From Acidobacteriota bacterium (GTDB lineage: Bacteria > Acidobacteriota > Terriglobia > Terriglobales > Acidobacteriaceae), in the NCBI GenBank assembly GCA_021805025.1, contig JAJZGF010000027.1, positions 1 to 32,626 of the forward strand: a DNA stretch of 32,626 bases, written 5' to 3'. The number at the start of each line of letters is the position of its first letter. Within the stretch, counting starts at the first letter, position 1. The translations under genes were made by a program, and so were the position numbers. This document shows positions 19,928 to 29,131 of this stretch, piece by piece. The notes below the pieces were generated by a model. The model worked only from the letters and a program-made list of their open reading frames with translations, was not told the DNA's origin and ran no database searches.

Positions 19928-21796
19928 TTGCGCCGACGCACATTTCTTGCCTCTCTTCCTCTCGTTGCAGCCAGCGGTGTGCCGTTGTCGGGAACCCAGG
20001 CAGGCGCGCAAACGCAGGCGCCGATGGCATCCAGGGAAGGCGAAGCCGGGCAGTCTGCGCAGATGCTGCCGAAGTTTCAGCCGGCCGGAGCGGAACGATT
20101 TGTGCGGCCTGATGTTCATGCGGGTGACCGCATCTCTGGCGCGAGCTTTGCGAGCAGATCTGCGGCGATGGGCTGCAACGGCGCCGCGGGGACGGCTCAG
20201 CCGATTGCAACGCTGACCGCGATCGAGATTTTGAAGCGTGGCGGAACAGCGGCAGATGCGGCGATTGCCGCCAATGCGTGCCTCGGATTTCTGGAGCCGA
20301 CGAGTTCCGGCCTTGGCGGCGACTGTTTTGCCATGCTCTGGGATCCGAAGCTCGGCAAGGTGGTCAGCCTGGCGGGTTCCGGCCGCTCGCCCAAATCACT
20401 GAGCCTGAAGACCGTGCGGTCGCGCGCCAGCAATGGCGTGATCCCGAAGCTTGGCGCAATCTCAGTATCTACGCCCGGCGCGCTGGATGCGTGGTGGACG
20501 CTGCATCAACGTTACGGGCGGCTGAAGTGGGCGGAGCTGTTTGAGCCGGCCATTCATCTTTGCGAGATCGGTGTGCCTGTGCCGCAGATTATTGGCTTCT
20601 ACATCAAGCGCAACATGGCTATCTTTGTGCGGCCGGGCTCCGGCGTGGAAGAGACAGCCAACGCGCTGCACACCTATGCTTCCGGCGGCAAGGCTCCCGG
20701 CGAGGGCGATGTTTTTCGCAATCCCGACCTGGCGCATACCTACCGACTGATCGCAGACGGAGGCCGCGACGCATTCTACGACGGGCCCATTGCACGCACG
20801 ATTGACGCGTATTTCAAGCGCATTGGCGGATGGCTCTCCGCCGAAGACCTGCGCGATCAACATGCAGAGTGGACCGATCCGCTGGTCACCAACTATCGTG
20901 GTTTGGATGTCTATGGGATGGCGGCCAACACGCAGGGGCTTGCGACGCTGCAGATTCTGAACATCCTGGAGAACTTCGATCTGCGCGAGATGGGATTCCA
21001 GTCGACAGCGGCGATTCACACGCAGGTGGAGGCCAAGCGGCTGGCCTACGAAGACCGCGCGCGCTACTACGCCGATCCGCACTTCGCGAAAATTCCGATC
21101 GAGTGGCTGAACTCAAAAGAATATGCGCGGGAGCGGGCGAAGCTGATCCGACCCGACCGCATTTTGACCCCGGTGTATCCGGGACAAGCGCCCAGCCATG
21201 GCGACACAACCTATTTCACCACCGCGGATGCAGACGGAATGATGGTGTCCATGATTCAGTCGAACTTTCGCGGCATGGGATCGGGGCTCGTGGCGGATGG
21301 ACTCGGTTTCATGTTCCAGGATCGGGGCGAATTGTTTTCACTTCAGGATGGGCACCCGAACCTCTATCAACCGGGCAAGCGGCCTTTCCAGACCATCATT
21401 CCCGGCTTTGCCACTAAGGATGGAGAGCCCTGGATCTCCTTTGGCGTGATGGGCGGCGATATGCAGCCCCAGGGCCAGGTACAGATTGTGCTCAACCGCG
21501 TAGACTATGGGCTCGACGTGCAAGCCGCCGGGGACAGCCCGCGCTGGCACCACGAGGGCTCTTCGCAAAGCATGGGAGAAGACGCGCCGGGCATGGGCCC
21601 CATGGGAATTCTGCATCTGGAGGCGGGTATTCCGGTGGAGACACGCAAGGCATTGATTGAGCTGGGCTGGCCGATGGGGCCCTCCGATGGCGGCTTTGGG
21701 CGCTATGAGTGCATTGAGCCGCGCAAGAATGGCGCAGACCGTGTTTACCACGCAGCAAGCGAGATGCGGGCGGACGGCGTGGCGCTGGCCTACTGA
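19928..21796 (+). CDS. ggt: Gamma-glutamyltransferase family protein, Tat-exported
   Basis: The protein has 622 residues. It starts at TTG 19928, with AGGAGG five bases upstream. The first 28 residues are a Tat-type signal (RRRTFLASLPLVAASG). The body is the N-terminal-nucleophile hydrolase fold of the family: GNGAAGTAQPIATLTAIEILKRGG-like opening, SSGLGGDCFAMLW, then the autoprocessing site H-G-D-T-T-Y-F at about residue 420, whose first Thr would become the new N-terminus of the small subunit. GSGL and the C-terminal PRWHHEG segments also fit. It cleaves gamma-glutamyl bonds such as that of glutathione, or a related substrate such as a cephalosporin-like amide. A 10-bp palindrome (TTGTGCACAA, 19891-19900) lies upstream. 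It is 81 bp after the activator gene. Confidence 0.9.
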   Translation: MRRRTFLASLPLVAASGVPLSGTQAGAQTQAPMASREGEAGQSAQMLPKFQPAGAERFVRPDVHAGDRISGASFASRSAAMGCNGAAGTAQPIATLTAIEILKRGGTAADAAIAANACLGFLEPTSSGLGGDCFAMLWDPKLGKVVSLAGSGRSPKSLSLKTVRSRASNGVIPKLGAISVSTPGALDAWWTLHQRYGRLKWAELFEPAIHLCEIGVPVPQIIGFYIKRNMAIFVRPGSGVEETANALHTYASGGKAPGEGDVFRNPDLAHTYRLIADGGRDAFYDGPIARTIDAYFKRIGGWLSAEDLRDQHAEWTDPLVTNYRGLDVYGMAANTQGLATLQILNILENFDLREMGFQSTAAIHTQVEAKRLAYEDRARYYADPHFAKIPIEWLNSKEYARERAKLIRPDRILTPVYPGQAPSHGDTTYFTTADADGMMVSMIQSNFRGMGSGLVADGLGFMFQDRGELFSLQDGHPNLYQPGKRPFQTIIPGFATKDGEPWISFGVMGGDMQPQGQVQIVLNRVDYGLDVQAAGDSPRWHHEGSSQSMGEDAPGMGPMGILHLEAGIPVETRKALIELGWPMGPSDGGFGRYECIEPRKNGADRVYHAASEMRADGVALAY

Positions 21797-21952
21797 GGCA
21801 TGCGTCCAGAGGCGCGCAGGGCTGGGAGCGGTCCACTTCCGCGGCGGCCGCAGGTGCGGCGCCGGCTTCATCTCGCATGAAAGAGCCTGCGCACGCCAGT
21901 TGATGGGATGGAATGCCCATGCACCACAGGATGAATGGGTTGCATAAAATCA

Positions 21953-21980
21953 TTGCGTTTCTGCCGCTGCGTGTTATGTT
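21953..21980 (+). promoter_or_regulatory. Possible housekeeping promoter of the TonB-dependent receptor
   Basis: TTGCGT (21953-21958) and TATGTT (21975-21980) are separated by 16 bases in a locally AT-richer stretch and point toward the receptor gene. A start near 21988 would give a leader of about 310 bases that includes the hairpin pair at 22116-22164. From 21797 to here I see only GC-rich repeats and no gene. Confidence 0.3.
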
Positions 21981-22115
21981 ATGACAAATCCGTGAAGGGA
22001 CAGCAGTTTTCAGAAGGCGATGGATATGCCTCAGTTTCGCGAACCGCGCCAGCTCAGTTCCCACGGCAGTCAACCATTCCGTAGGCCTTTGAGGCGTCAC
22101 TGGCCACTCTGCGCT

Positions 22116-22164
22116 GATTCGGTGAATCTTCCCGCACCGAATCTTAACCATGCGGGAGTTTTTT
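22116..22164 (+). promoter_or_regulatory. Two mutually exclusive hairpins, candidate attenuator in the receptor leader
   Basis: Hairpin A pairs GATTCGGTG (22116-22124) with CACCGAATC (22135-22143). Hairpin B pairs CCCGCA (22131-22136) with TGCGGG (22151-22156) and is followed by TTTTTT (22159-22164). The two share bases 22131-22143, so both cannot form fully at once: A would free transcription, B would stop it. The receptor ATG is 137 bases further on. I do not recognise a known riboswitch class. Confidence 0.5.
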
Positions 22165-22300
22165 GACGGTGATTGAATTTCCCTGGCCTTTGCGCCAGGC
22201 ACTATGCATCACCGTAGATCGCTAGCTCACTGTCAACGACCGAACGGGACTCATGCTTGGGCGTTGACGGAGGCTGAGCTATATCCCCCTGGAGGCACAA

Positions 22301-25300
22301 ATGACTTTGACAACATCTAGACAGCTGCATCGGCTGTGCGGAATTTTGATTGTCGTTGGACTCGCTTTGGCGGCTTCCACAGCCAGGGCGCAATCGACAG
22401 CCAGTTTGCAGGGAACGGTCGCGGACAGCTCCGGCGCCGTGGTACCGAACGCGAAGGTTGTGGTGCGGGAGACATCGACCGGTGTGACGCGCACCGTAAC
22501 GACAGGCGCGAGCGGGAGCTATCAAATCCCCGCGCTCGCGCCCGGCCATTATGACGTGGAAGTCTCGGCGTCGGGCTTCGCGAGTACCAAGACGCAAGGG
22601 GTGGTTCTGCGTGTCAGCAGCACAGTTACCACGGATGTCACGCTCACCGTATCGAATGCGCAGCAAACGGTGCAGGTGAATGCTCAGGCGCCGGTGGTGG
22701 ATGAGACGGGTATCTCCGTGGGGCAGGTGGTGGACCAGGAGACGGTGCAGCAGGCGCCGCTGAACGGGCGTCACTTCGTCGATCTGGGTGCATTGATTCC
22801 CGGATCGGTGGCCGCACCTGCCAATGGCTTTCTGACGCAGCCGATCCGCGGCCAGGGTGCGCTGTCGTTTGATACGGCGGGCCAGCGCGAAGACACCGTG
22901 AACTTCATGATCAACGGCGTCAACCTGAACGACATGATCCAGAACCAGATCACCTTTCAGCCGGAGCTGAACACGGTTCAGGAATTCAAGGTGGACAATT
23001 CGACGTTCTCGGCCGAGTATGGCCGCAGTTCAGGCGCGATTGTAAACATCGCGACGCGCTCGGGCACGAGCAAGTTCCACGGGGAAGCGTACAACTATCT
23101 GCGCAACCAGTTTTTCGATGCGCGCAACTATTTCAATCGTCAGTTTACGGTGACGGGCACGCATGTACCGCAATCGCAGTTCATTCGCAACCAGTTTGGC
23201 GGCGATCTGGGCGGGCCGCTCTGGAAGGACCACACCTTCTTCTTTGGCAGCTATGAAGGGCTGCGGCAGAGGCAGGGGGAAGCGGTCAATACCGGTGTAC
23301 CGGCGAATGGCGCGGTCGGTGCGGACACGACGATCCAGAAGCTGCTGGCTCTGCTGCCGGGCCCGAACTCCGGCAACAGCTTTGTCGGTTCGGCGAGTGC
23401 GCTTGCCAACATCGATCAGGGAACGATTGACGTATCGCAGACGATCAGCGCGAAGGATCAGCTGCACGGTTTCTACGCGATTCAGGAAGACTCCCGCAAC
23501 GAGCCGCTGGCTCCCACCGTGGCTGATACGATTCCCGGTTACGGCGACACCAGGCCGGCACGACGCCAACTTTTTACCATTGCCGAGACGCACATCATCA
23601 GCTCCAATGCCGTCAATGAGGCGCGCTTGGGTTTGAACCGGATTCACATCACGTTTACGCCGTCGTTTACGGCCAATCCGGTGCAGTTCGGCATCAGCGA
23701 TGGCATCACAACCTCCATCGGACTGCCGTCGATCACCATCTCCAGTATTGGACTGAACTTCGGCGGGCCCGCGGGCGAGCCGCAGGGACGCGGCGATACG
23801 CTTGGCGTGCTCTCTGACACGTACAGCCTGCTGCACGGCAATCACTCGCTGAAGTTCGGCGGCGAGTACCGCCGCTTCATCAATTCAAACTTTGCCGGAG
23901 ATACGGGCTCGTTCGTCTTCAGCACGCTGAACAACTTCCTTGCCGACCATGTAAGCTCCTTTGCGGTAACTCCGGGATCACGGCCTAGCCGCGTGTTTGT
24001 GAATGCGCTGGGCGCCTATGCCGTGGACTCGTGGAAGGTGAATACGCGCCTGACAGCGGAACTGGGCTTCCGGTTTGAATGGAACGGCACGCCAAGCGAA
24101 GCAGAGAACCGCCTGGTCATCTTCCAACCATCCACGCAGTCGCTGGTGCGCGTAGGCAGCCCCGGCGTGGGCAGCGTCTATGGACAGAATTACGACTTCG
24201 AACCGCGACTGGGGTTTGCATGGGATTTAACGGGCAAGGGGGAGACCGTGCTGCACGCCGGCTACGGCATTTTGTACAACGAGCCGGAGACTAATCTTGT
24301 GACGCCTCTGAGTGTGAACCCGCCGTTTGCCGTGCCGGTATCGCTGACGACGAGCACACCCAGCTCTGCGCTGACGATGGAGAATGCCTTCTCGCAGTCC
24401 CAGGCCTCGAAGAGCATCGCCCCGATCACAGTAAACCAGGGGTTCAAGAATCCTCAAACGCAGTCCTACAACCTGGAACTGGAGCAGCGGCTGGGTGACA
24501 CGCTTGGCTTCAAGCTCGGGTACATCGGTTCAAAGGGCACTCACCAGCAGATGTTCCTGAACCTGAATCAACCGGTGAACGGTGTACGGCCCTACGCGGC
24601 TCTAGGCTCCGCAAGCCCGATCGATCCGGGACTCCCTTTGACGAACATTTACTCGAGCGCAAGCGTGGGGAACAGCAATTACAACGCGATGTTTGTGACG
24701 GTGAACAAGAGCTTCGGCAACAGCCTGCAGTTCAGCGGTTCCTACACTTGGAGCAAGGCGCTGGACTACAACTCCTATAGCCTTGCCACCACGTCGCAGA
24801 CGCCGCAGGACTCGACGAATCCGCGCGGGGACTATGGCCCTTCGGACTTCGATACGCGCAACCACTTCTCTCTGAGCGGAGTGTATGATCTGCCCTTCCA
24901 CCAGAACCGTTTCGTGGACGGATGGGAGCTCTCGACGATCACTGTGCTGCAGAGCGGCGACCCCTTCACGGTGAACACCACGCTGGCCAATGACGGTACG
25001 GTGGGTCGCACACGCCCTGACCTGCTAGGCAATGTGCAGACCTCCCGGACGTTGGCCTCGAACGGGAACATCCAGTACATTCCGCAGGCCATTTGCAACA
25101 CGGCGACGACGGGCTGCCTGTTCTCAAGCCCCGGCACCGGCTTTGGCAACATGGGTCGCAACGTCATCTACTATCCGGGCCTTGAGGATGTGGATTTGGG
25201 GCTTCAGAAGCAGACGAAAATCAGCGACAAGGTGAGCTTTAATCTGCGCACGGATTTCTTCAACATGATGAATCACCCCAACCTGGGCCAGCCCAATTCC

Positions 25301-25417
25301 ACCTTTGCGCCGGGCGGCGCCGCGGGAACCTTCGGTCAGATTGCCTCCACTCGCTTCCCGATCGGTGACTTCGGCTCATCGCGCCAACTGCAGGTCTCGG
25401 CGAAGATCGTGTTCTGA
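22301..25417 (+). CDS. Oar-like TonB-dependent receptor with carboxypeptidase-regulatory domain
   Basis: The protein has 1038 residues; CTGGAGGCACAA precedes ATG 22301. A signal peptide (1-31) is followed by a carboxypeptidase-regulatory-like beta domain (SLQGTVADSSGAVVPNAKV, SGSYQIPALAPGHYDVEV; about 35-115). Next is a TonB plug (QQAPLNGRHFVDLGALIPG, VNFMINGVNLND, VDNSTFSAEYGRSSGAIVNI; about 130-260). The rest is a large beta-barrel ending in Phe, as outer-membrane proteins do. Acidobacteria carry dozens of these, thought to import oligosaccharides or other large ligands with TonB energy; the ligand cannot be read from the sequence. No SusD partner is adjacent. A leader with two alternative hairpins precedes it and a strong terminator follows. 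Confidence 0.95.
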   Translation: MTLTTSRQLHRLCGILIVVGLALAASTARAQSTASLQGTVADSSGAVVPNAKVVVRETSTGVTRTVTTGASGSYQIPALAPGHYDVEVSASGFASTKTQGVVLRVSSTVTTDVTLTVSNAQQTVQVNAQAPVVDETGISVGQVVDQETVQQAPLNGRHFVDLGALIPGSVAAPANGFLTQPIRGQGALSFDTAGQREDTVNFMINGVNLNDMIQNQITFQPELNTVQEFKVDNSTFSAEYGRSSGAIVNIATRSGTSKFHGEAYNYLRNQFFDARNYFNRQFTVTGTHVPQSQFIRNQFGGDLGGPLWKDHTFFFGSYEGLRQRQGEAVNTGVPANGAVGADTTIQKLLALLPGPNSGNSFVGSASALANIDQGTIDVSQTISAKDQLHGFYAIQEDSRNEPLAPTVADTIPGYGDTRPARRQLFTIAETHIISSNAVNEARLGLNRIHITFTPSFTANPVQFGISDGITTSIGLPSITISSIGLNFGGPAGEPQGRGDTLGVLSDTYSLLHGNHSLKFGGEYRRFINSNFAGDTGSFVFSTLNNFLADHVSSFAVTPGSRPSRVFVNALGAYAVDSWKVNTRLTAELGFRFEWNGTPSEAENRLVIFQPSTQSLVRVGSPGVGSVYGQNYDFEPRLGFAWDLTGKGETVLHAGYGILYNEPETNLVTPLSVNPPFAVPVSLTTSTPSSALTMENAFSQSQASKSIAPITVNQGFKNPQTQSYNLELEQRLGDTLGFKLGYIGSKGTHQQMFLNLNQPVNGVRPYAALGSASPIDPGLPLTNIYSSASVGNSNYNAMFVTVNKSFGNSLQFSGSYTWSKALDYNSYSLATTSQTPQDSTNPRGDYGPSDFDTRNHFSLSGVYDLPFHQNRFVDGWELSTITVLQSGDPFTVNTTLANDGTVGRTRPDLLGNVQTSRTLASNGNIQYIPQAICNTATTGCLFSSPGTGFGNMGRNVIYYPGLEDVDLGLQKQTKISDKVSFNLRTDFFNMMNHPNLGQPNSTFAPGGAAGTFGQIASTRFPIGDFGSSRQLQVSAKIVF

Positions 25418-26124: not shown

Positions 26125-26994
26125 ATGGCGGTTATTTCGCAAAGCGGGCTTCATGGAGCTGAGAGTGCGGAAGCGAAGTTGCATGCGCTGGAAGAAGCGC
26201 TGCGCGGGCTGGGCAGCGTGATGGTGGCCTACTCCGGCGGTGTGGATTCCGCGTTTTTGGCGGCGGCGGCGCATCGCGTGCTGGGCAACAGGATGCTGGC
26301 TGTGCTGGCCGACTCGCCGAGCCTGGCACGGCGCGATATGGAGCAGGCTGCGGTTTTTGCAGAAGGGCTGGGCATGCCTTTGCGCGTGATCCAGACCGAC
26401 GAGCTGGAGAAGCCGGAGTATGCGCGCAACGATGCGGATCGCTGCTTCCACTGCAAGACGGAGCTGTTTGACGGCATGAAGTCGCTGGGAGCAGAACTGG
26501 GATTCGCGCACATTGCCTATGGCATGAACGCGGACGACACGCGCGACTATCGTCCCGGACAGCGCGCGGCCGCGGAGCATGATGTGCTGGCTCCTCTGGC
26601 GGATGCAGGACTGACGAAGTTGGAAATTCGCACACTGGCAAGGGCGGCGGGCTACGCGCTGTGGGACCGTCCGGCGGCGCCGTGCCTGTCCTCGCGCGTG
26701 GAGTATGGGCGCACCGTGACGCGCGAGGTGTTGGACCAGGTGGAGCGCGGCGAAGAGAGCCTGCGGCAGTTGGGCTTTCGCGAGTTTCGCGTGCGCCACC
26801 ACGGCGAACTGGCGCGCGTGGAGATTGCGCGCGCAGAGCTGCCGCGCGCCCTGACGATGGAGATGATGGACGCGATGACCGCTGCGCTGCGCGGGGCGGG
26901 CTTCAAGTACATTACGCTGGATTGCGCCGGTTTCCGGTCCGGCTCAATGAACGCAATCCTGCCCGCCGAGATCCTGACCCGGCGCGGAGCCTAG
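26125..26994 (+). CDS. larE: LarE, ATP-dependent sacrificial sulfur transferase
   Basis: The protein has 289 residues from ATG 26125. The PP-loop ATP-binding motif is YSGGVDSAFLAAAA (about residues 36-49). The R-C-F-H-C-K-x-E-L motif lies at about 110-118, and the sulfur-donor Cys is in APCLSSRVEYG (about 190). LarE adenylates and then sulfurates pyridinium-3,5-biscarboxylic acid mononucleotide, giving up its own Cys sulfur, to build the nickel-pincer nucleotide cofactor of lactate racemase-type enzymes. A perfect TATAAT ends seven bases before the ATG and no Shine-Dalgarno site can be fitted, which suggests a leaderless message. larC and larB follow, giving all three cofactor genes in one operon. 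Confidence 0.93.
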   Translation: MAVISQSGLHGAESAEAKLHALEEALRGLGSVMVAYSGGVDSAFLAAAAHRVLGNRMLAVLADSPSLARRDMEQAAVFAEGLGMPLRVIQTDELEKPEYARNDADRCFHCKTELFDGMKSLGAELGFAHIAYGMNADDTRDYRPGQRAAAEHDVLAPLADAGLTKLEIRTLARAAGYALWDRPAAPCLSSRVEYGRTVTREVLDQVERGEESLRQLGFREFRVRHHGELARVEIARAELPRALTMEMMDAMTAALRGAGFKYITLDCAGFRSGSMNAILPAEILTRRGA

Positions 26995-27017
26995 CGGACA
27001 GTTTAAAATCAGGCTCG

Positions 27018-28388
27018 ATGCGAACTGGATACCTGGAGTGTTTTTCCGGCATCAGCGGCGACATGCTGCTGGGTGCGTTGGTGGATGCGGGCGTGGATTT
27101 TGCGAGCCTCCAGCGGACGGCTGCTGCGCTGAACGTGGGCGCTCGGCTGGAGATGCGCAAGGTGATGCGCGGCGGCATTACAGCGACCAAGGTGGATGTG
27201 CTGACACCGGATCATCCCGCGCCGGCGGTTGAGCACCGGGAGCACGAAGGGCACGCGCACGACCAACACCCGCTGCACAAGCACACATCGGACATGCACG
27301 CCCACGATGAACACGTGCATTCGCACGAGCACACGCAGGGGCATGAGGAACACACGGGTCACTCGCATACAACGTCCGCTCCGGCGCACTCCCACGCGCA
27401 CCATCGCTCGCTCTCAAACATCCTGGGCATCATTCGCAGTGCGCCGCTTGCCGACGGGGTAAAGGAGCGCGCGGCGCGCGCGTTTCAGTTGCTGGGCGAG
27501 GTCGAGGCCGCGATTCACAGTATTCCGGTGGAGAAGGTGCATTTCCACGAGGTGGGCGCGGTGGATACGATCGTGGACATTGTGTGCGCGGCGGCGGGCT
27601 GCGCGGCGCTGGGCGTGGACCGCTGGCTCGCTTCTCCACTGAATGTGGGTAGCGGGACTGTGGAGTGCGCACATGGAACGTTGCCGGTGCCTGCTCCGGC
27701 CACGCTGGCGCTCTTGGGCGATGCGCCGGTGTATGCGGCGGGCGCGCCGATGGAGCGTGTGACGCCGACGGGCGCGGCGCTGCTGCGTATGTTGGATGTG
27801 CAGTATGCGGCGCTGCCGGCGATGCGGGTGAGGGCGTCGGGATATGGAGCGGGCGGCCGTGACACGCCGGGGCAACCGAATCTGCTGCGGCTTCTGGTGG
27901 GCGAGGAAGCGACGCAGGAGACAGGTACGGAGCCGATCGCGATTATCGAGGCCGTGATTGACGACTCGACCCCGCAGTTGCTGGCTTACGTGAGTGAGTT
28001 GTTGCTTGAGGCCGGGGCGTGGGATGTGTATCGCGCAGCCGTGCAGATGAAGAAGGGACGCAACGGCGTGCAGATGACGGTGCTATGCCGTCCGGAACTG
28101 ACGCCGGCGCTGCGCGATCTGCTCCTGCGCGAGACGACGACGATCGGGCTGCACTGGCGCGTAGAGCAGAAGGTCTCATTGGCGAGGGAGTTTGCCGAGG
28201 TGCGGACCGAGTGGGGCGTGGTGCGCATCAAGATTGCGCGCTGGCCGGCGGGCGAGGTGGCCAACGCAGCGCCCGAGTATGAAGACTGCCGCAGGATTGC
28301 ACGGGAGCGTGCAATTCCGCTGAAGCGCGTGATGCAGGAGGCGATCCGCCTGTACGCAACACTGGACAAGAAGGAGACGCGCGGATGA
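27018..28388 (+). CDS. larC: LarC, nickel insertion protein for the pincer cofactor
   Basis: The protein has 456 residues from ATG 27018. The opening YLECFSGISGDMLLGALVDAG and later HFHEVGAVDTIVDIVCAA, GSGTVECAHGTLPVPAPA, TPTGAAL are family hallmarks. LarC uses CTP to insert nickel into the dithiolated pyridinium cofactor. The gene is one unbroken frame; in some lactobacilli it is split by a programmed frameshift. Residues 73-130 (27234-27407) are an inserted His-rich stretch with 21 His in 58 residues, probably a nickel store or chelator. TAAAAT at 27004-27009 lies just before the ATG, so it may also be read from its own leaderless start. The gap after larE is 23 bp, and it overlaps larB by four bases. 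Confidence 0.93.
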   Translation: MRTGYLECFSGISGDMLLGALVDAGVDFASLQRTAAALNVGARLEMRKVMRGGITATKVDVLTPDHPAPAVEHREHEGHAHDQHPLHKHTSDMHAHDEHVHSHEHTQGHEEHTGHSHTTSAPAHSHAHHRSLSNILGIIRSAPLADGVKERAARAFQLLGEVEAAIHSIPVEKVHFHEVGAVDTIVDIVCAAAGCAALGVDRWLASPLNVGSGTVECAHGTLPVPAPATLALLGDAPVYAAGAPMERVTPTGAALLRMLDVQYAALPAMRVRASGYGAGGRDTPGQPNLLRLLVGEEATQETGTEPIAIIEAVIDDSTPQLLAYVSELLLEAGAWDVYRAAVQMKKGRNGVQMTVLCRPELTPALRDLLLRETTTIGLHWRVEQKVSLAREFAEVRTEWGVVRIKIARWPAGEVANAAPEYEDCRRIARERAIPLKRVMQEAIRLYATLDKKETRG

Positions 28389-29131
28389 ATCGTATGCAGA
28401 TTGAATCGCTGCTGCTAGAAGTGAGCGAGGGCCGGACGGGTGTGGATGCGGCACTGGAGCGGCTGCGCCACCTTCCATTTGAGGACCTGGGCTTTGCCAA
28501 GGTGGATCATCATCGCGCGCTCCGGACGGGCATGCCGGAGGTGATCTTTGCCGAGGGCAAGACGCCGGAGCAGGTGGCACAGATTTTTGCGCGCATGGCG
28601 CAGGCGGGTGGCAATGTGCTGGCGACGCGCGCCTCTCGCGAGGCTTGCGAAGCGGTGCTCGCCGCGGAGCCGCGCGCGACGAGTCATCCCCTGGCTCGCA
28701 CCATTACGCTGGCGCAGGCGCCGACGCCGCCCGGTAATGGCACCATCTGCGTGGTCTGCGCAGGAACGAGCGATCTGCCTGTGGCCGAGGAAGCGACGGT
28801 GACGGCGCGGCTGATGGGCAACACAGTGGAACTGATTGCCGATGTGGGCGTAGCGGGTATCCACAGGCTGCTGGCGCAGAAGGAGACGCTGCAGCAGGCG
28901 CGCGTGCTGGTGGTGTGCGCGGGCATGGAGGGTGCGCTGCCCACGGTTGTGGCGGGACTGGTGCATGCGCCGGTGGTGGCCGTGCCGACGAGCATCGGCT
29001 ATGGCGCGTCGTTTGGGGGTATGGCGGCGCTGCTGGGCATGCTGAACTCCTGTGCGCCGAACGTGACGGTGGTGAATATCGACAACGGCTTTGGCGCGGC
29101 TTGCGTGGCTTCGCTGATCAATCACATCTAA
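28385..29131 (+). CDS. larB: LarB, pyridinium-3,5-biscarboxylic acid mononucleotide synthase
   Basis: The protein has 248 residues. Its ATG overlaps the larC stop (ATGA), so translation is coupled. The C-terminal two thirds resemble the PurE-type carboxylase fold: ICVVCAGTSDLPVAEEA, VELIADVGVAGIHRL, VVCAGMEGALPTVVAGLVHAPVVAVPTSIGYG. The N-terminal part (DLGFAKVDHHRALRTGMPEVIFAEGKT) is the LarB-specific segment. LarB carboxylates and hydrolyses nicotinic acid adenine dinucleotide, the first step of pincer-cofactor synthesis. The order here is E-C-B. No larA-type racemase is present in the window, so the enzyme using the cofactor must lie elsewhere. The gene looks complete. Confidence 0.95.
   Translation: MNRMQIESLLLEVSEGRTGVDAALERLRHLPFEDLGFAKVDHHRALRTGMPEVIFAEGKTPEQVAQIFARMAQAGGNVLATRASREACEAVLAAEPRATSHPLARTITLAQAPTPPGNGTICVVCAGTSDLPVAEEATVTARLMGNTVELIADVGVAGIHRLLAQKETLQQARVLVVCAGMEGALPTVVAGLVHAPVVAVPTSIGYGASFGGMAALLGMLNSCAPNVTVVNIDNGFGAACVASLINHI

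Follow-up and report, generated by a model that had tools for sequence, protein, structure and literature searches.

A default-open attenuator candidate in the leader of an Oar-like receptor gene from an acidobacterium

Introduction

Terminator/antiterminator riboswitches and leader-peptide attenuators employ two mutually exclusive helices, the later of which stands before a T tract. The same layout occurs ahead of an Oar-like receptor gene in the window, by which we mean the whole stretch of DNA analyzed here (32,626 nucleotides of contig JAJZGF010000027.1 from an Acidobacteriota bacterium, assembly GCA_021805025.1). Unlike riboswitches and leader-peptide attenuators, this leader contains no aptamer family at the Rfam gathering score, and the reading frame overlapping the element gives only weak matches.

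CruR in Bordetella provides a described case of regulated early termination before a TonB-dependent transporter operon (PMC9426467). The window displays a similar arrangement in that its element precedes an Oar-like receptor gene, as early termination in the CruR case precedes a TonB-dependent transporter gene; the difference is that CruR acts via a nascent protein and Rho, whereas the window contains a T-tract terminator (PMC9426467). Premature 5′ terminators were predicted by Naville and Gautheret in 2010 and scored by synteny across species (PMC2965389). Their cases and the window both feature a terminator in the gap before a gene, but their approach used cross-species synteny, while the window's element is without a counterpart in the relatives searched (PMC2965389).

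The first-pass annotation had considered regulated early termination of such a receptor gene to be undescribed. Given CruR (PMC9426467), the general idea is already published for a TonB-dependent transporter operon and is less unheard of than had been assumed. Within a partial coverage of the literature (titles and the beginnings of abstracts), no such element was found upstream of any Oar-like receptor gene, or anywhere in an acidobacterium.

Genomic setting and geometry of the element

The element is located on the forward strand in the 504-nt intergenic gap between a gamma-glutamyltranspeptidase (GGT) gene (19928 to 21796, +) and the receptor gene (22301 to 25417, +). The receptor comprises 1038 aa, its ATG is preceded by GGAGG, and Pfam recognizes an OMP_b-brl_4 barrel (E 4.8e-179) together with a CarboxypepD_reg domain, which upholds the Oar-like assignment made at first inspection. 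Named relatives of the receptor in the genome contig collection derive nearly all from Acidobacteria records. On the 3′ side of the receptor gene, adjacent larC and larB genes (nickel pincer cofactor) occupy 26661 to 29131 (+).

Hairpin 1, the would-be antiterminator, spans 22116 to 22143 (+) and pairs GATTCGGTG (22116 to 22124) with CACCGAATC (22135 to 22143) around a 10-nt loop (22125 to 22134), with a predicted energy of −12.8 kcal/mol when folded alone. All nine of its nine pairs form, in agreement with the perfect 9-bp hairpin originally proposed. The terminator hairpin (22129 to 22158, +) joins TCCCGCA (22130 to 22136) to TGCGGGA (22151 to 22157) and is extended by a U22129–G22158 wobble. 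Its stem was first given as 6 bp and in fact contains 7 Watson-Crick pairs plus one G-U, while the six T residues reported with it are indeed present directly 3′ of the hairpin (22159 to 22164, +). Eight pairs in a G+C-containing hairpin followed by six T residues constitute the sequence signature of an intrinsic terminator, with a predicted energy of −11.4 kcal/mol for 22128 to 22166; the 14-nt loop is long for a terminator. As had been stated, 137 bases lead from the last T (22164) to the receptor ATG (22301), and this interval harbors a further imperfect inverted repeat with 22-nt arms of 73% complementarity (22166 to 22215, +).

The coordinates also bear out the proposed base sharing and mutual exclusion. 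Only C22135 and A22136 are common to hairpin 1 and the terminator, and the terminator 5′ arm from 22129 to 22134 sits in the loop of hairpin 1. Since hairpin 1 thereby takes in the rest of that arm, the helices are mutually exclusive as ordinary nested helices; judged from the sequence, an H-type pseudoknot between the hairpin 1 loop and the terminator 3′ arm would be conceivable. An upstream strand (22106 to 22114, +; ACUCU and CGC) can additionally pair with the terminator 3′ arm at 22152 to 22159, enclosing hairpin 1. This second predicted antiterminator helix varies with the transcript modeled, the mean pairing probability of ACUCU ranging from 0.01 to 0.84 at length 22164 across six assumed starts upstream of 22116.

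Predicted energy balance

The terminator competes with a mutually exclusive helix of similar stability, as in a transcription attenuator. When either helix was forced in the isolated segment 22116 to 22164, the terminator fold reached −14.0 kcal/mol and that of hairpin 1 −13.6 kcal/mol. Starting the RNA at 22100 changed these values to −15.5 and −18.6 kcal/mol, and starting it at 21987 to −50.5 and −51.8 kcal/mol. These and the following probabilities come from folding under an equilibrium thermodynamic model, without simulation of transcription. In RNA extending to 22164, hairpin 1 prevails for all six starts upstream of 22116 (probability 0.73–1.0, against 0–0.26 for the terminator), whereas the seventh start tried, 22116 itself, yields a terminator probability of 0.73. 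The start at 22020 is an exception at two other lengths, the terminator being the likelier fold in RNA that ends at 22158 (0.64) or 22230 (0.57); which helix prevails therefore hinges on where transcription actually begins. Because hairpin 1 dominates modeled transcripts from upstream starts, the modeled default is mostly read-through.

Chance expectation

The overlapping pair is real and improbable by chance. When the 504-nt gap was shuffled 3000 times with dinucleotide frequencies preserved, the overlapping hairpin/terminator pair never arose, although 44 shuffles had any terminator of this grade (a stem of 6 or more, a loop up to 15, and six T) and 56 had a 9-bp perfect hairpin. Besides the structure at 22129 to 22164, neither strand of the window has a terminator of that grade. 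Scanning both strands of 158 other loci (2,143,746 bases in total) yielded 52 same-grade terminators, and 0 of the 52 are overlapped by a perfect hairpin of 8 bp or longer; this set excludes window-bearing loci, and its terminators are not all independent, because 7 pairs of the 158 loci overlap. Folding z-scores are −4.80 for hairpin 1 alone and −2.89 for the terminator alone. The fold energies of the whole 351-nt leader (z −1.40) and of a 71-nt piece (z −0.91) are ordinary. A stricter scan limited to loops of 3–8 omits the terminator at 22129 to 22158 and returned two terminator-like sites between 20000 and 27000, fewer than the shuffle mean of 6.5. The riboswitch or attenuator layout put forward in the first-pass annotation thus survives as an exclusive and improbable arrangement, while the regulation that the term implies is unsupported.

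Search for known regulatory elements

Rfam returned no match at gathering score anywhere in the window, and hence no riboswitch aptamer, consistent with the original remark that no known aptamer class fits. At E values up to 10, the segment 21790 to 22330 produced only the sub-threshold small-RNA families M23 (0.29) and NsiR1 (5.8).

Two leader frames were considered as possible leader peptides, and Pfam recognized nothing in either. A 48-codon frame (22020 to 22166, +) spans the whole element, its TGA stop beginning at the last T of the T tract. Its GC content by codon position (0.63/0.51/0.51) departs from the third-position values of 0.71–0.76 seen in three window genes, and it has no Pfam match at E up to 1. 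Matches to this frame occurred in 78 of 79 genomes at E up to 10, the best outside its own genome reaching only E 0.0019. Four were inspected: those at L162 and L163 lie out of frame in a 463-aa ORF, that at L164 lies opposite a 503-aa ORF, and L165 was viewed as sequence only. The frame was accordingly rejected as a leader ORF.

A 49-codon frame (21935 to 22084, +) begins MGCIKSLRFCRCVLCYDK and contains several cysteines. It was rejected as a cysteine leader, as it attains 3 Cys in 7 codons at most, a level reached by 12 of 112 leaders (window included) versus 7 of 112 reverse complements. Its distance to the ATG resembles that of the upstream Cys-rich ORF in the related receptor branch discussed below. 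Neither predicted frame looks like a translated leader ORF with a regulatory codon run upstream of the terminator.

Conservation in relatives

Searching 60 genomes with 21950 to 22330 at E 0.001 retrieved a match in one, the window's own, and a search of the plasmid collection with the leader gave none. The shorter query 22090 to 22330 yielded some match in 43 of 80 same-genus genomes at E up to 1, all of them short except self; the best non-self match (L096) covers 28 query bases at E 0.0015 and, on visual inspection, falls close to where a coding frame ends. A pattern combining the hairpin arm with the terminator was found in 1 of 79 genomes, the window itself.

Among orthologs of the receptor, the nearest (L004, 74–75% identical) has a leader whose similarity to that of the window (z 2.81) stands slightly apart from the others. 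The leaders of the 16 other orthologs, whose proteins are 43–53% identical and of which L005 and L038 are the same sequence, display no similarity to the window's leader (z −1.25 to 0.85). The best L004 leader alignment (1206 to 1258) falls on the element, at 22104 to 22153, with 35 of 53 columns identical, but it is not significant, being equaled by 48 of 500 dinucleotide shuffles over the whole gap. Under this non-significant alignment, 4 of the 9 hairpin 1 pairs are kept and the T run is absent, and the aligned L004 stretch folds no better than shuffles.

Proposed mechanism

Building on the helices, overlap, rarity, and predicted energy balance established above, we tentatively favor a lineage-specific, default-open attenuator-like element in the receptor mRNA leader, a reading to which we give somewhat less than an even chance. 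During transcription, hairpin 1 would be completed while 7 nt still precede the terminator 3′ arm, and it would sequester the terminator 5′ arm in its loop and 3′ arm; under this proposal, most polymerases would therefore read through into the receptor gene. If hairpin 1 were blocked by a bound protein or RNA, by a ribosome, or by folding of upstream RNA, the terminator would form, and an 8-bp terminator formed before the T tract would cut receptor expression. Three parts of this proposal are inferred: transcription of the leader starting upstream of 22116, activity of the terminator in living cells, and the existence of some factor able to tip the balance between the hairpins. The leader yielded no aptamer, leader peptide, or known binding site.

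Promoters, transcript boundaries, and competing explanations

The principal competitor, which we regard as unlikely though with a real share of the probability, is a plain intrinsic terminator for transcription from the GGT gene or the gap, with the receptor promoter downstream of 22164 and hairpin 1 incidental. The lack of any other terminator of that grade in the window would suit such a role, as would the same-grade terminators present in 3 of 111 other receptor leaders (L010, L052, and L058, read from leader tails; 120 receptor loci gave 116 with an N-terminal match and 111 with a leader of at least 250 nt). Two of these, in L010 and L058, directly follow the upstream stop (33 and 21 nt), and the third, in L052, resembles the window's in lying 312 nt from the upstream stop and has a TTGACA readable by eye on its 3′ side. 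Against a plain terminator, and for an attenuator, stands the distance of 332 nt from the GGT stop. The distance to the upstream stop was compared at 27 other terminators outside ORFs: 14 are within 100 nt, but 6 are 300 nt or more away, which tempers the argument. This comparison left out window-bearing loci, L096–L130, and L160 onward. Promoter placement points the same way. The best sigma70-like candidate in the gap (21953 to 21980, +; TTGCGT, 16 nt, TATGTT) is upstream of the element and predicts a start near 21987, 314 nt before the ATG. It scores 8.0, versus 4.9 for the best candidate between the T tract and the ATG. Neither score is significant on this scale, a sigma70-like frequency table applied to a comparison set of 104 leaders with the full 450 nt: the upstream value is lower than the best score of a typical shuffled leader (median 8.65), and a consensus promoter scan of the gap detected no promoter-like site. 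The terminator is moreover disfavored in most, though not all, models that include upstream RNA, which would be odd for a plain terminator.

Chance structure without function, in which an isolated hairpin and a T run coincide by accident within an intergenic region that is not conserved, is rather improbable. It agrees with the failure to find conservation in the genomes searched and with a whole-leader fold energy inside the shuffled range, and, since the window was first inspected for striking features, rare patterns would be favored to some extent; it is difficult to reconcile with the absence of such a pair from the 3000 shuffles and from the 52 terminators elsewhere. The terminator might instead be where an independent small RNA of ~180 nt ends, one that starts near 21987 and has the promoter candidate as its other boundary. 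We consider this very unlikely, as the promoter candidate is weak, no Rfam family matches at gathering score, and conservation was not found in the genomes searched; the sub-threshold match to NsiR1, a terminator-hairpin small RNA, does cover 22108 to 22165, but its E value is at chance level. Least probable by far is a DNA operator for a dimeric regulator in place of an RNA hairpin. The perfect 9-bp arms and their start-to-start spacing of 19 bp would be compatible with one, yet allowing up to 3 mismatches gave only 3 places in the genome (the repeat itself and two with 3 mismatches) versus 1 for the reversed control, with no sign of a regulon. The attenuator-like element thus remains our preferred reading of the window, as an orphan, default-open candidate that could act as an on/off switch.

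Cysteine-codon ORFs before related receptors

Attenuation at cysteine codons is known from mycobacteria. A short leader ORF with at least 4 Cys in 7 codons is present in 8 of 112 receptor leaders and in 0 of 112 reverse complements. The window's own leader, with 3 Cys in 7 codons at most, falls outside this group and lacks the arrangement. Six of the eight (L009, L013, L021, L022, L025, and L027) belong to one branch, whose receptors are 33–36% identical to that of the window; of the other two, L039 encodes an ortholog of the window's receptor (48%) and L082 a receptor of 28% identity. The L039 leader frame, MTALILSASEARGRWRSTGCVCCCRRSWG, has 4 Cys in 7 codons at about −270 to −180 from the receptor start.

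With L022 as query, the branch was extended to leaders of the same genus (L022, L025, L027, and L168–L197), in which a run of at least 4 Cys in 6 codons appears in 18 of 30 leaders versus 1 of 30 reverse complements. The proportion rises to 17 of 20 among the nearest orthologs (at least 68% identity to L022), a set that includes the query and five other loci that first drew attention. Two positions recur. In 17 of 30 leaders there is a downstream Cys ORF, located 96 to 184 nt upstream of the receptor start and in most cases terminating only a few codons from the Cys run. Ten of 30 have an upstream Cys ORF at a distance of 334 to 483 nt from the receptor start, and 9 of 30 have both. In L168, L172, and L182, a terminator-like hairpin (requiring only four T) separates the two Cys ORFs. 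A scan of 9 neighboring proteins at three loci revealed no recurring link to sulfur or metals. Near one of those loci is a gene for cytochrome c assembly of the CcmF type. By analogy, these leaders look like cysteine-codon attenuation of a TonB-type receptor, and they represent a stronger lead than the window's own element.

Implications

As a broader speculation, to which we assign little probability, the element would be a recent lineage-specific switch, open by default, in which an unknown signal disrupting hairpin 1 closes the Oar-like receptor gene by intrinsic termination, while another branch of the superfamily would apparently have come to use leader peptides with cysteine codons to the same end. 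The element is one candidate in one genome, and the cysteine-codon leaders of related receptors offer the better-supported route to the same question.
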